NCBI RefSeq assembly: GCF_000427405.1
Contig: NZ_KE386491.1
Location: forward strand, 248,001 to 312,000
Direction of reading: 5' to 3'
Source: Flectobacillus major DSM 103
GTDB lineage: Bacteria; Bacteroidota; Bacteroidia; Cytophagales; Spirosomataceae
Length of the DNA stretch: 64,000 nucleotides
The notes below the pieces were generated by a model. The model saw nothing but the letters and a program-made list of their open reading frames with translations. It had not been told where the DNA came from and did no database searches. Made by a program: the position numbers and the translations under genes. Each line of letters starts with the position of its first letter. The first letter of the stretch is position 1. Below, one piece after another: positions 15,401 to 27,611 of the stretch.

Positions 15401-15487
15401 TAGATACAAAGCATTGCATCTCTATGGGTGAAAAACATATTCAACAATAATCACTCATTCACTCAATATCTTTATACGTTAGTTGCA

Positions 15488-22272: not shown

Positions 22273-25200
22273 ATGAAATTGACTTTTTCATTGCTATTAC
22301 CAATGTTCCTTGGGTTGATTACAGTCTCTGTAAATGCCCAGTTTAGGCTTGTCCCTTCTTCCGAGTCTGGTGTAACTTTCGTAAATCAGTTGACCGAAAC
22401 CGAAAAACACAATGTATTAGCGTATGAATATTTTTACAATGGAGGTGGGGTGGCTGTAGGCGATTTGAATAACGATGGCCTACTCGATCTGTACTTTACT
22501 GGTAATATGGTACAAGACCAAATTTACCAAAATCTTGGAAATCTAAAGTTTAAAAATGTTACTCAACAAGCAGGAGTCAGTAAAGGGGGGTGGAAAACAG
22601 GCGTAACCTTCGTCGATATTAATCAAGATGGCTGGCTCGATATTTATGTATGCTATTCGGGCGATGGTGACGCCAATGCTCGTCGAAATAAACTTTATAT
22701 CAATCAAAAAAACTTCAAATTCTTAGAAAAAGCAGCCGACTACGGCCTTGATTTACCCACAAATTCTACACAAGCAGCATTTTTTGACTACGACAAAGAC
22801 GGTGATTTAGATTGCTTTTTACTCAACCATAGCATCAAAGATTATAAACGCTTTGATGCCTCGGTGCTAAAAGCCCAGCGTGATGAAACTGCTGGCGACC
22901 GTTTGCTCAAAAATGAAAATGGAAAGTTTGTAGATGTAAGTGTACAAGCCAATATCAAAGGTAATCCTTTGGGTTTTGGTTTGGGTATTGCCATTGCCGA
23001 TATTAATCTCGACGGTTGGCCTGATATTTATGTTTCTAACGATTATATAGAACAAGATTACTTATATATCAACAATGGCGATGGCACTTTTACCGATAAA
23101 TTAGAAGAATCGGTTGGGCATTTGAGCCAGTTTTCGATGGGAAATGAGGTGGTAGATATGAATAACGACGGCTTCCCCGATATATTTACCCTTGATATGC
23201 TACCAGAAGACAACCGCCGTCAAAAGCTGTTGTATGGCCCCGAAAATTATGAGAATTATAAAAGTATGATTCGCAATGGTTTTTATCACCAAATTATGCG
23301 AAATATGCTGCAACTCAACAATGGTGATGGTACTTTTAGTGAAATCGCTCAGTTAGCGGGTATTTCTAATACCGATTGGAGTTGGTCGCCTTTGGTGGCT
23401 GATTTTGATAATGATGGATATAAGGATTTGTTTGTTACGAATGGATACCTCCGTGACTATACCAACATGGACTTTATGAAGTTTTATGCAGACAAAGAAC
23501 TCAAGGCAGCTCAGGGAAATCCGACGGCGATGATGGATATTTTAAAAGAAATGCCCTCTACTGCTACACAAAACTATATTTTTAGAAATAACGGAAAACT
23601 CCAGTTTGAGAATAAAACCAAAGATTGGCATTGCGACCAACTTTTGTTGTCGAGTGGGGCTGTCTATGCTGATTTAGACAATGATGGTGACCTCGAAATA
23701 ATTACTAACAATGTCAATAAAGAAGTTACAATTTATCAAAATGAGCAAAAATCTCAACATTATTTGACAGTTCAGCTTGGCGATATGGCCAAAAGTAATA
23801 CTTATGGGGCTAAAGTGTGGATATATTATCAAGGAAAAATGCAATATCGTGAGCATTATCCAACCCGTGGTTTTCAGTCATGTATGTTGATGCCCCTGCA
23901 TTTTGGAGTAGGTGAAAATACTTCGATTGATAGCGTTAAGGTAGTTTTTACCAATCAGACAACTCAGGTGTTTAAGTCAGTAAAGGCAAATCAGGTTTTA
24001 AATGTAAGTATCGAGAAAAGTACAAAAAGCAATATAGCTCAAGTTGTCAAAAATGTTTTTGTTCCTATCAAAAATGACACTATTCCTTATGGAAATGTTG
24101 AAGACGATTATAATGATTTTAAACGACAATTATTATTACCCAATATGTTATCGTATGTTGGGCCAAAAGTAGCCAAAGGTGATGTCAATGGCGATGGCTT
24201 GGAAGATATGTATATTGGTGGCTCAAAAGGGCAGTCGGGAGCTATCGTACTTCAACAATCAGATGGTTCATGGCTAGGTACAGAGCAAGCAAGTATCGAA
24301 TCGGATATTATGTGTACCGATACCGATGCACTGTTTTTTGATGCCGATAACGATGGCGACCTCGATTTGTATGTAGTAAGTGGCGGATATGCCTATTTAC
24401 CAGACGATTTATTGTTACAAGATAGGTTATATCTCAACGACGGAAAAGGACATTTCACCAAAACTGAAGACAACTTACTAACAGGCGATTTGAATAGTGA
24501 TGCCTGTGTTACTGCTCTAGATTTTGACCATGATGGCGATTTAGATTTATTTATTGGTGGAAGGGGAGTGCCTGGGGCATATCCACTCACAGTAACGAGT
24601 CGATTATTACAAAATGATGGCAGAGGCTTTTTTACGGATGTCACAAAAACCTTAGCACCAGCTTTTGAAAAGCTAGGTATGATTACTACAGCCAAAAGCT
24701 TAGACATCAATAAAGATGGCTGGGACGACCTGATTTTGGCTGGCGATTGGCAACCCATAAGTGTTTGGATAAATAACAAAGGAACTTTTGTACAAAACAA
24801 ACAGGCTATTATAGGTGATGAATTGAAAGGGTGGTGGAATACGATGGAGGTAGCTGATTTGGATAATGACGGCGATTTGGATGTAGTTTTGGGAAATTAT
24901 GGCATCAATAATCAGTTGAAACCTTCTGATAAAGAACCTGTGTCTTTAGTATATGGCGATTTTGACCAAAATGAAGCCGTTGACCCATTTTTGTGTTATT
25001 ATGTTCAAGGGAAATCGTATCCACTGGTAAGTCGTGATGAAGCCCTCAATCAAATGTTTGCTTTGCGACGAAAATTTACTAATTATGCTTCTTATGCCGA
25101 TGCCGAATTGAAGGATATGCTAACTCCCGAACAGCTTAAATTAGCTGATACACTAATAGCCAATACTTTCCAATCAATCGTATTAGAAAACAAAGGCAAT

Positions 25201-25539
25201 GGTACGTTTCAGCCTATTGCATTACCTGTTGAAGCTCAATTTGCTCCAGTTTATGCAATTGCTTTGATAGATATTAATAAAGATGGATTAAAAGACTTGA
25301 TTTTAGGGGGTAATCAGTTTCATACTCGTATTAAAATAGGAAAAATGGATGCTAACTACGGTATGCTTTTCATCAATAAAGGTCGTTGTCATTTTGATTA
25401 TTTGCCACAGTATCAATCAGGTTTTCAGGTAAAAGGCGAAGTTCGGGATATTATTACTACTAAGAATAAAAATGGTCAACAAGTACACTTTTTTAGAAAT
25501 AATGATACTGTTTCGAGTTATCAATTATTAGAAAAGTGA
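22273..25539 (+). CDS. Secreted FG-GAP/VCBS-repeat protein with ASPIC/UnbV domain
   Basis: 1088 residues, signal peptide 1-22 (ends VNAQ). Seven Ca-binding-type DxDxDG repeats come first (DLNNDGLLDLYFTG, DINQDGWLDIYVCY, DYDKDGDLDCFLLN and so on), then an ASPIC/UnbV domain at roughly 495-585 (YGAKVWIYYQGK, HFGVGENTSIDSVKVVF), then a second set of about seven repeats. This is an integrin-like beta-propeller architecture, related to CRTAC1; such proteins often sit with SusCD pairs in Bacteroidota. A binding role outside the cell is likely, the ligand unknown. The stop codon (25537-25539) lies inside the first unit of the 23-bp repeat array. The haloperoxidase gene follows the array. Confidence 0.93.
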   Translation: MKLTFSLLLPMFLGLITVSVNAQFRLVPSSESGVTFVNQLTETEKHNVLAYEYFYNGGGVAVGDLNNDGLLDLYFTGNMVQDQIYQNLGNLKFKNVTQQAGVSKGGWKTGVTFVDINQDGWLDIYVCYSGDGDANARRNKLYINQKNFKFLEKAADYGLDLPTNSTQAAFFDYDKDGDLDCFLLNHSIKDYKRFDASVLKAQRDETAGDRLLKNENGKFVDVSVQANIKGNPLGFGLGIAIADINLDGWPDIYVSNDYIEQDYLYINNGDGTFTDKLEESVGHLSQFSMGNEVVDMNNDGFPDIFTLDMLPEDNRRQKLLYGPENYENYKSMIRNGFYHQIMRNMLQLNNGDGTFSEIAQLAGISNTDWSWSPLVADFDNDGYKDLFVTNGYLRDYTNMDFMKFYADKELKAAQGNPTAMMDILKEMPSTATQNYIFRNNGKLQFENKTKDWHCDQLLLSSGAVYADLDNDGDLEIITNNVNKEVTIYQNEQKSQHYLTVQLGDMAKSNTYGAKVWIYYQGKMQYREHYPTRGFQSCMLMPLHFGVGENTSIDSVKVVFTNQTTQVFKSVKANQVLNVSIEKSTKSNIAQVVKNVFVPIKNDTIPYGNVEDDYNDFKRQLLLPNMLSYVGPKVAKGDVNGDGLEDMYIGGSKGQSGAIVLQQSDGSWLGTEQASIESDIMCTDTDALFFDADNDGDLDLYVVSGGYAYLPDDLLLQDRLYLNDGKGHFTKTEDNLLTGDLNSDACVTALDFDHDGDLDLFIGGRGVPGAYPLTVTSRLLQNDGRGFFTDVTKTLAPAFEKLGMITTAKSLDINKDGWDDLILAGDWQPISVWINNKGTFVQNKQAIIGDELKGWWNTMEVADLDNDGDLDVVLGNYGINNQLKPSDKEPVSLVYGDFDQNEAVDPFLCYYVQGKSYPLVSRDEALNQMFALRRKFTNYASYADAELKDMLTPEQLKLADTLIANTFQSIVLENKGNGTFQPIALPVEAQFAPVYAIALIDINKDGLKDLILGGNQFHTRIKIGKMDANYGMLFINKGRCHFDYLPQYQSGFQVKGEVRDIITTKNKNGQQVHFFRNNDTVSSYQLLEK

Positions 25540-26156
25540 GTTAGTGATTGAGTAAATTGTGAGTTAGTGATTGAGTAAATTGTGAGTTAGTGATTGAGTG
25601 AATTGTGAGTTAGTGATTGAGTGAATTGTGAGTTAGTGATTGAGTGAATTGTGAGTTAGTGATTGAGTAAATTGTGAGTTAGTGATTGAGTAAATTGTGA
25701 GTTAGTGATTGAGTAAATTGTGAGTTAGTGATTGAGTGAAAAGTGAGTTAGTGATTGAGTAAATTGTGAGTTAGTGATTGAGTGAAAAGTGAGTTAGTGA
25801 TTAAGTAAATTGTGAGTTAGTGGTTGAGTGAATTGTGAGTTAGTGATTGAGTGAAAAGTGAGTTAGTGATTAAGTAAATTGTGAGTTAGTGGTTGAGTGA
25901 ATTGTGAGTTAGTGATTGAGTGAAAAGTGAGTTAGTGATTAAGTAAATTGTGAGTTAGTGATTAAGTAAATTGTGAGTTGGTGATTAAGTGAATTGTGAG
26001 TTGGTGATTGAGTGAATTGTGAGTTGGTGATTAAGTGAATTGTGAGTTGGTGATTGAGTGAATTGTGAGTTGGTGATTGAGTGAATTGTGAGTTAGTGAT
26101 TGAGTGAATTGTGAGCTAGTGGTTGAGTGAATTGTGAGCTAGTGGTTGAGTGGTTA
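25536..26156. repeat. Tandem array, 27 units of 23 bp
   Basis: Counting from GTGAG at 25536, every unit start falls exactly 23 bp after the last, up to 26134, with no indel. Each unit is the 18-mer core GTGAGTTAGTGATTGAGT plus a 5-nt tail, AAATT, GAATT or GAAAA (GGTTA in the last). Differences within the core are transitions at positions 6 (T/C), 8, 12 and 15 (A/G); tail position 1 is also A/G. Units 11-13 and 14-16 are copies of a 69-bp trimer, begun again at 17. There are no spacers, so it is not a CRISPR. All frames on both strands carry recurrent stops, so it is non-coding. The plus strand contains just two C. Flanking genes point the same way, so it would be in a transcript. Confidence 0.97.
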
Positions 26157-26217
26157 GGTCAAACGGCAGCCCAATATTTTGAGTTCTCCAACCAATATCT
26201 TTTTCAAAAAATTACTC

Positions 26218-26254
26218 ATCACTAACTCACTCAATCACAATTCACTCAATCACT
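26218..26254. repeat. Inverted partial copies of the 23-bp unit
   Basis: ATCACTAACTCAC (26218-26230) and AATTCACTCAATCACT (26239-26254) are reverse complements of parts of the array unit, separated by TCAATCAC. They lie 62 bp after the array and 25 bp before the next start codon, and could pair with any upstream unit in RNA. Confidence 0.85.
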
Positions 26255-26279
26255 CAATAAAATATAAATACTGGTAAAA

Positions 26280-27611
26280 ATGAAAACACAAAGATGGATA
26301 TATGCTCTAATATGCTTTGGAGTGATATTCCAAAATACTACTTTAGCGAAAGAAACCCCTTCATTGACCGACACAAAGGCTTATGTAAAAGCCTTAAAGC
26401 AATTAACCGACGTGATGGTAAGCGATGTTACTGGCCCATGTGCTGCTGCACGTTATTATGCTTATGCCAATTTAGCTCCTTATGAAATTTTATCACAGAA
26501 TACTACTAATACCAAATTGGTAAAACTCAAAGGAAAGCTGAATGCCTATCCTAATTTTGATGATTTAAAATCTAAAGCACCAATCGCTGAGGATTTTGCC
26601 GCTATTTATGCTTTATTGAGAATGGGCGAAGATTTATTGCCATCGGGCTATACCCTCGAAAACCCTCGTAAAGAATTGGTAAAACAACTAGAACAGTCAG
26701 GTAAAATATCTTCACAAGTACTACAAACCTCTGTTGCCTATGCCGATTCTGTGGTGAAACGCTTGGTAAAATATGCAGCCAAAGACGGCTATGTAAAAAC
26801 AAGTGGCTATTTACGCTACACACCTATCAATAAAGAAGGTTTCTGGCAGCCAACACCTCCAGCATATACCGAAGCCTACGAACCACACTGGCGAACCCTC
26901 CGTCCTTTTGTATTGGATAGTGCCGCTCAGTTTAAGCCAGAACCTGCTATTCCTTATAGCAAAGACCCCAACAGTACATTCTTTAAGCTTGCTAAAGAAG
27001 TTTATGATGCTACTCAGCATCTTACAAAAGAACAAATTCATATTGCTAATTTTTGGGATTGTAATCCATTTTTCTTGAATCAAAAAGGGCACATTAGTTT
27101 CGGAACAAAAAAAATATCTCCTGGCGGACATTGGATGGGTATTACAGGCATAGCCTGTTTACAGAAAAAAGTAAATTTAGCCGAAGCCGTACGCTGGCAC
27201 GCTATGGTAGGCATTACGATGGCAGATGCTTTTATATCGTGTTGGGATGAAAAGTACAGAAGTAATAGAATCAGACCCGAAACTGTCATCAATCAACAAA
27301 TTGACCCCAATTGGCGAGGATTACTACAAACCCCACCTTTTCCAGAATATACCAGTGGACACAGTGTGATTTCTTCGGCAGTAGCTACGCTGCTTACCCA
27401 TTTAGTAGGCGATAACTTTGCTTATACCGATGTTGTCGAGGTTGAATTTGGTATACCAAAACGTTCGTTCAAATCATTTAAACAAGCAGCTTCGGAAGCC
27501 GCTATTTCTCGCTTTTATGGCGGTATCCATTTCAAAGACTCTATCGACTACGGAGCCAAACAAGGTGCTAACATTGGTGACTATGTAATACAGAAGGTAA
27601 TTTCTCAATAA
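26280..27611 (+). CDS. Vanadium-dependent haloperoxidase / PAP2-family secreted protein
   Basis: 443 residues, signal peptide about 1-23 (ends TLAKE). The C-terminal half carries the vanadate/phosphate-binding triad of the family: KYRSNRIRP (Lys325, Arg332), YTSGHSV (Ser359, Gly360, His361) and SRFYGGIHFKDSID (Arg411, His417). Family members are either haloperoxidases using bound vanadate or acid phosphatases; sequence alone does not decide between them. It follows the FG-GAP protein and repeat array and precedes a fucosidase by 86 bp. SusCD, FG-GAP/ASPIC protein and VCPO-like enzyme together form a recurring Bacteroidota arrangement whose function has not been settled, to my knowledge. Confidence 0.9.
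   Translation: MKTQRWIYALICFGVIFQNTTLAKETPSLTDTKAYVKALKQLTDVMVSDVTGPCAAARYYAYANLAPYEILSQNTTNTKLVKLKGKLNAYPNFDDLKSKAPIAEDFAAIYALLRMGEDLLPSGYTLENPRKELVKQLEQSGKISSQVLQTSVAYADSVVKRLVKYAAKDGYVKTSGYLRYTPINKEGFWQPTPPAYTEAYEPHWRTLRPFVLDSAAQFKPEPAIPYSKDPNSTFFKLAKEVYDATQHLTKEQIHIANFWDCNPFFLNQKGHISFGTKKISPGGHWMGITGIACLQKKVNLAEAVRWHAMVGITMADAFISCWDEKYRSNRIRPETVINQQIDPNWRGLLQTPPFPEYTSGHSVISSAVATLLTHLVGDNFAYTDVVEVEFGIPKRSFKSFKQAASEAAISRFYGGIHFKDSIDYGAKQGANIGDYVIQKVISQ

Follow-up and report, generated by a model that had tools for sequence, protein, structure and literature searches.

A 27-unit tandem array in Flectobacillus major is one overgrown arm of a dispersed intergenic element, probably of the REPIN or foldback type

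The stretch of Flectobacillus major DSM 103 DNA analyzed here (64,000 nucleotides, hereafter the window) contains a long, perfectly phased tandem array between two genes. The array does not stand by itself but forms the overgrown arm of a tripartite element, in which it is followed by a core of ca. 60 bp and a short inverted arm (Table 1). Copies of the core with arms are dispersed through the F. major genome in both orientations. The array is best explained as the hypertrophied arm of a non-coding, REPIN- or foldback-like interspersed element located at gene 3′ ends, a reading to which we assign a probability of roughly 0.6. The repeat family of this genome and some of its relatives is apparently undescribed and resembles hairpin repeats and insect foldback elements; no description of it was found in the literature searched, mostly at the level of search results.

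Table 1. Positions of the element, its flanking genes and a second, minimal arm in the window
Feature	Position	Strand	Basis or remark
Upstream gene, FG-GAP / ASPIC-UnbV protein	22273..25539	+	ORF; Pfam PF13517, PF07593
Long arm, 27 units of 23 bp (8+8+7)	25536..26156	+	TRF, core matches, unit typing
Core alignment stretch	26151..26218	-	both ends reach slightly into the arms
Short inverted arm, GTGATTGAGTGAATTGTGATTGAGTGAGTTAGTGATGAGT on minus strand	about 26211..26258	-	
Downstream gene, PAP2-superfamily protein	26280..27611	+	ORF; Pfam PF01569
Minimal GTGA arm, two units, between convergent ORFs elsewhere in the window	15451..15462	-	

An earlier note on this DNA had described 27 copies of a 23-bp unit in exact phase over 621 bp, beginning inside the stop codon of the FG-GAP gene. 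The array and its phase were confirmed. The 18-nt unit core was matched 27 times at up to 3 mismatches (0.02 matches expected in shuffled sequence), with successive starts always 23 bp apart and no indels, and TRF reported positions 25536-26152 with period 23, 26.8 copies, 92% matches and 0% indels. The first unit begins at 25536, with the TGA stop codon (25537-25539) inside its GTGA; unit 27 is of full length, with its final 5 nt diverged to GGTTA. What the earlier note missed, although the array it saw is real, is the 8+8+7 make-up of the unit (GTGAGTTA + GTGATTGA + GTGAATT), the core, the inverted arm and the genome-wide family. Stops are present in all three frames of the plus strand (41-42 per frame, longest open run of 10 codons); the minus strand has fewer, 9-10 in each frame, and its longest stretch without a stop is 58 codons. 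The array strand contains just 2 C in 621 nt. No match above the gathering score was obtained with Rfam in the 64-kb window, and a CRISPR reading was rejected, the units being arranged head-to-tail without spacers.

Typing of the units gave the order AABBBAAACACDECDECDDFGFGGBHI. As can be seen, higher-order repeats (CDECDECD and FGFG, duplications of 69 and 46 bp) are present, and it thus follows that two- and three-unit blocks were themselves duplicated; growth of the arm by slippage or unequal exchange fits this pattern. That the array is an artefact of assembly is hardly credible. One copy elsewhere in the genome (L132) does run into N at its array, and the fetched parts of the first 452.8 kb of the contig contain ca. 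5,000 N, but the array itself is free of N and its unit variants are ordered, phased and free of indels across 621 bp.

The array lies in a gene cluster that includes SusC/SusD-like genes and an alpha-L-fucosidase gene (ORFs, Pfam). The gene that follows, which had been called a haloperoxidase gene, is where the earlier note placed it, but Pfam assigns it to PAP2 only. The gap between the FG-GAP and PAP2 genes is 740 bp here. In six relatives (L009, L010, L011, L012, L013 and L018, among 80 loci fetched) what is likely the same gene pair, the FG-GAP orthologue being an ORF of 1085-1116 amino acids before PAP2 and assigned by length and position alone, is separated by 59, 59, 9, 2, 2 and 0 bp, free of tandem arms in each case. 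Since these gaps are short and arm-free, this lineage has probably gained the element. A control element specific to these two genes finds no support: the likely same pair lacks arms in the six relatives, and the motif recurs at some two dozen sites of the genome and in 12 genera. One of the six sequences, NZ_JAAALB010000011.1 (L010), is titled Cellulophaga sp. BC115SP and falls in the Flectobacillus genus group; its title is probably wrong.

The octamer pair GTGADTKAGTGADTKA has at least 145 matches in the F. major genome (6.22 Mb), at least 89 of them on the plus and at least 56 on the minus strand. Array starts form 21 groups plus a few further places. According to the earlier note, an array scattered through the genome at random gaps would lose its local significance; the scattering is largely there, but the places are not random, being ordered near stop codons. 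At many of them arms flank a shared core. A model of this core (R1), built from nine cores, retrieved 12 strong copies in the genome (E of 8.5e-12 or lower; 5 plus, 7 minus), nine of which match by construction and three of which are not in the model; the next match had E=0.04. The copy in the window (26152-26214, model positions 5-67, E=1.6e-16) is one of the nine sequences in the model. All 12 strong copies have an arm of the GTGA/TCAC type on at least one side. Copies with nearly identical cores differ in arm length: perfect runs of TCACAAC units number 7 at L116 and 40 at L126, and those of TTCATTCC units 1 at L115 and 8 at L119. A tandem array of varying copy number, as a minisatellite or VNTR is understood to be, is therefore seen both among same-core copies and among orthologues in related species. 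The suggestion of a polymorphic VNTR thus gains indirect support, unit number differing between same-core copies and between the orthologous arms of different species at one locus (locus 2, below). The arms are candidate VNTR markers for Flectobacillus and its relatives.

The distribution of the core and that of the arms beyond this genome were analyzed separately. In the other 221 of the 222 family genomes searched, no convincing copy of the core was found under stricter filters, with which weak matches are lost; five single weak matches (E from 1.5e-4 to 4.8e-4) were all inspected and have no arms. Among the four congeneric genomes the best core match had E=0.03. The strict 23-nt arm pattern GTGADTKAGTGADTTGTGADTKA was found in 27 of the 222 family genomes, spread over 12 of the 36 genera; one congener has 66 matches, the F. 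major genome 40, and 195 genomes have none. Outside the family it was absent from all 391 genomes sampled (395 drawn, 4 within the family excluded). The pattern read backwards, used as a control, gave zero matches save 2 in one genome; for the 16-nt pattern this control is invalid, as the tandem motif is almost its own mirror image and the reversed pattern matched 70 and 12 times. Loci were chosen by the strict patterns, so that short arms are under-sampled, and at most 27 of the 30 strict-pattern loci of the family search were viewed. Within one genus (g3, G043-G050) strict arm matches range from 0 to 54 by species, which makes it a natural comparison for the spread and removal of arms. Carriage of the arms by phages was considered and rejected, the arm pattern being present in just 2 IMG/VR contigs (3 stretches). 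On one predicted viral contig, IMGVR_UViG_2919352079_000002 (L333, 6600-7420), two GTGA arms are followed by near-identical core sequence.

The arms follow simple rules. Among GTGA-to-GTGA spacings of 0-12 nt at the loci studied, 284 of 359 in the F. major genome and 396 of 496 in relatives are of 3 or 4 nt, against 16 of 57 in the arm-masked F. major genome. The 4-nt tails are TTTA, GTTA, ATTA, ATGA or TTGA in 187/203 (own genome) and 230/241 (relatives) cases, and the 3-nt tails GTT, ATT or TTT in 74/81 and 144/155. The vocabulary is small, with five GTGA-octamers and three GTGA-heptamers. When neighboring arms at most 250 bp apart were scanned at 91 loci, all 54 opposite-strand pairs faced inward and 0 outward; 36 pairs (13 and 23) were on the same strand. 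The cores have a median length of 58.5 bp (58 cores). Since most of these cores are mutually unrelated, spread as a unit could be demonstrated only for the own-genome core; the data suggest it for the small G004 core family. A palindrome like gtagcggtaacccttgcggttaccgctac lies in or beside the elements at L195, L211, L251 and L284 and is apparently a separate, REP-like repeat.

These regularities bear on the simplest alternative, namely that the arrays are plain minisatellites, neither mobile nor functional, that grew by slippage from chance GTGA-rich seeds. Such growth would account for the copy-number differences and higher-order repeats, and heptamer arrays (TAACTGA) are known from other bacteria, according to the consulted part of PMC4679880. 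However, a small unit vocabulary recurs in this and related genomes, the arms are confined to one family (0/391 genomes outside), and inward pairs and a dispersed core are present. Chance seeds predict none of these, and we consider plain minisatellites unlikely.

The elements prefer gene ends. Position was analyzed at 104 given loci, leaving out one element inside an ORF, elements without flanking ORFs on both sides and clusters of fewer than 3 units; ORFs were taken from a simple longest-ORF caller. Of 88 element-bearing gaps, 54 are codirectional, 31 convergent and 3 divergent, while 212 background gaps include 120 codirectional, 39 convergent and 53 divergent ones. Divergent gaps are thus under-represented (3/88 versus 53/212, Fisher p=2.7e-6), with the background drawn from the F. 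major genome only (N-containing gaps left out), though most elements are from relatives. The distance from stop codon to arm has a median of 9 nt and ranges from overlap to 620 nt (n=116); that from arm to the next start has a median of 43.5 nt (n=54).

Closeness to stop codons and rarity in divergent gaps are also what one would expect of a functional RNA element at mRNA 3′ ends, whose paired arms would form a long stem after the stop, in either direction, protecting mRNA ends or aiding termination, with copy number tuning the effect. Since opposite arms face inward, they can fold together. The predicted fold of the window element lies far below those of shuffled sequences (z -13.6, 20 shuffles), as do those of the core region (z -4.8) and of L120 (z -4.9), and some cores (loci 2, 3 and 5) contain hairpins that look terminator-like by eye. 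An RNA hairpin is therefore possible for the window element on the strength of these predicted folds. On the other hand, any inverted repeat would give such scores, the L129 fold is no better than shuffles (z -0.6), and terminator prediction gave nothing in the window element, its sole call in 25400-26500 being inside the next gene. RNAalifold on the core yielded a single hairpin of 5 pairs, none of which shows a compensatory double change. Pairing of arms with their own partners was compared with permuted partners in 45 elements that satisfied the two-arm rule, out of 80 loci given. Over all genomes the true partners scored 911, which 1 of 2000 permutations reached, the permutations averaging 811 (sd 26); with permutation inside genomes the mean was 868, and 911 was reached by 131 of 2000. 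Hairpin arms that co-evolve locus by locus, a signal clear across genomes and weak inside them, were accordingly rejected: within genomes own arms pair just weakly better than swapped ones. Moreover, the 0 to 54 range in g3 is odd for an important function, and neutral repeats too accumulate at 3′ ends. Taken together, a functional 3′-end RNA element seems doubtful to us, though worth weighing.

BIMEs are bound by nucleoid protein or gyrase, and the arms might likewise be tandem arrays bound by such a protein and marking gene ends. A motif that is degenerate yet fixed, family-restricted, intergenic and inverted would suit this role. The wide spread of arm sizes, with 2 units at one extreme and 27 triple units at the other, would not, nor would a number of matches per species that runs from 0 to 66, with few in some congeners, and we regard a protein-binding array as quite improbable.

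Congeners were compared by alignment at five loci, with three genomes for loci 1, 2 and 5 and two for the others; the flanks are ca. 88-98% identical. At locus 1, the element is kept and the arms vary more than the core. At locus 2, the terminator-like hairpin of the core is kept and the number of arm units differs between species. Both arms are kept at locus 3, where the cores of G001 and G002 are unrelated in flanks ca. 94% identical; at locus 4, the core is kept and the arms are rearranged. Locus 5 retains the left arm and the terminator-like core. The aligned slices cut off the right end in one genome at loci 2 and 5. It follows from this comparison that arms are fluid, able to persist and able to outlive their core. 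Neither a target-site duplication nor a clean empty site could be made out at these five loci; the elements there are mostly inherited in place, and recent transposition is therefore not seen.

The plan of the element is one of inward arms of GTGA-initial heptamers and octamers around a short core, close after stop codons. If it is of the REPIN or foldback type, it would spread as a non-autonomous palindromic unit by means of some activity and would be tolerated mainly at gene 3′ ends. Slippage or unequal recombination would then have added 23, 46 or 69 bp at a time until the arm in the window reached 27 copies, and an effect on mRNA (hairpin, stability or termination), if any, would be secondary. 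A more specific version, in which one Bacteroidota family maintains a bacterial foldback-type system with inward arms of small vocabulary, exchangeable cores at gene ends and a dedicated enzyme beyond slippage alone, is put forward tentatively, as the less probable case.

The search for such an enzyme centered on Y1 transposases. Y1_Tnp had no match in the F. major genome at E of 0.001 or lower, and a RAYT-like protein of a congener had none there either, in a weak search that lacked a positive control; RAYT-driven REPINs are thus not supported in this genome. In 10 arm-bearing genomes there are 43 Y1 matches. The surroundings of 30 of them were inspected, out to about 1.0-1.5 kb or as far as the contig reached; none had a tandem GTGA pair beside the Y1 gene, and one (L294) had a TCAC pair. 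Among the matches listed, an arm and a Y1_Tnp gene lie ca. 2.5 kb apart on the same contig in G047 (C515) and G049 (C447), probably one ancestral arrangement, and ca. 4 kb apart in G046 (C255 and C253). A RAYT/Y1 link to the arms may exist in these three genomes.

Comparison with known systems gives partial likenesses. REP, REPIN and BIME sequences are short and extragenic and form inverted pairs, with a less conserved spacer between the partners and a predicted hairpin; they are located mostly after genes, between codirectional or convergent ORFs, and some families are species-specific (PMC3116915, PMC3733652, in the parts consulted). To the extent of those parts, the arms studied here are alike: they are extragenic, lie after genes and form inverted pairs (54/54 inward) around a less conserved spacer, the 58.5-bp median core. 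They differ from REPs, which are each a short imperfect palindrome of 20-60 bp as those portions have it, in being C-poor, degenerate tandem arrays of GTGA-initial 7/8-mers in variable number. REPINs are associated with a RAYT (Y1 tyrosine transposase), of which none was found in the F. major genome.

With foldback transposons the element shares inverted termini that are built of tandem repeats and vary in unit number. Galileo is reportedly an insect foldback transposon whose inverted termini have internal tandem repeats. In Tetris, arm repeats of such termini have grown into satellite-like arrays (PMC4079207), much as the tandem repeats of the window arm have. Tetris units, however, are ca. 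220 bp, while the bacterial element has units of 7-8 bp and no known transposase; the comparison is one of analogy, not relationship. Were the foldback reading true, bacteria would possess a counterpart to these insect elements.

Cyanobacterial STRR sequences are short intergenic tandem repeats of 7 nt. Inverted DNA-uptake-sequence terminators are inverted pairs of a fixed short motif after genes; the element differs from them in its tandem arms, its variable core, the absence of a called terminator at the window element and the absence of uptake evidence. TAACTGA heptamers occur in Beggiatoaceae, Cyanobacteria and five Bacteroidetes as direct arrays, which in the genome studied mostly lie a short way ahead of starts (PMC4679880, to the extent consulted). 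Judged from that text, they share short intergenic 7-nt tandem units and some long arrays with our element, and differ in the unit itself and in lacking the inverted two-arm arrangement close after stops. Given these differences from REPIN, foldback and TAACTGA repeats, the element belongs to no single known family and is best regarded as a variant of the REPIN/foldback type. What had appeared as an isolated array is thus part of a family-wide repeat system with clear rules of vocabulary, orientation, position and core exchange, and it offers a route from an interspersed element to a satellite-like array.

Two further repeat families, each of ca. 160 bp, were observed in G001 and G002, with at least 95 and at least 89 matches to the whole query (L315, 6908-7069 and 13496-13656). 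One of them has a terminator-like palindrome in common with the core at L282 (L315, 18677-18725).
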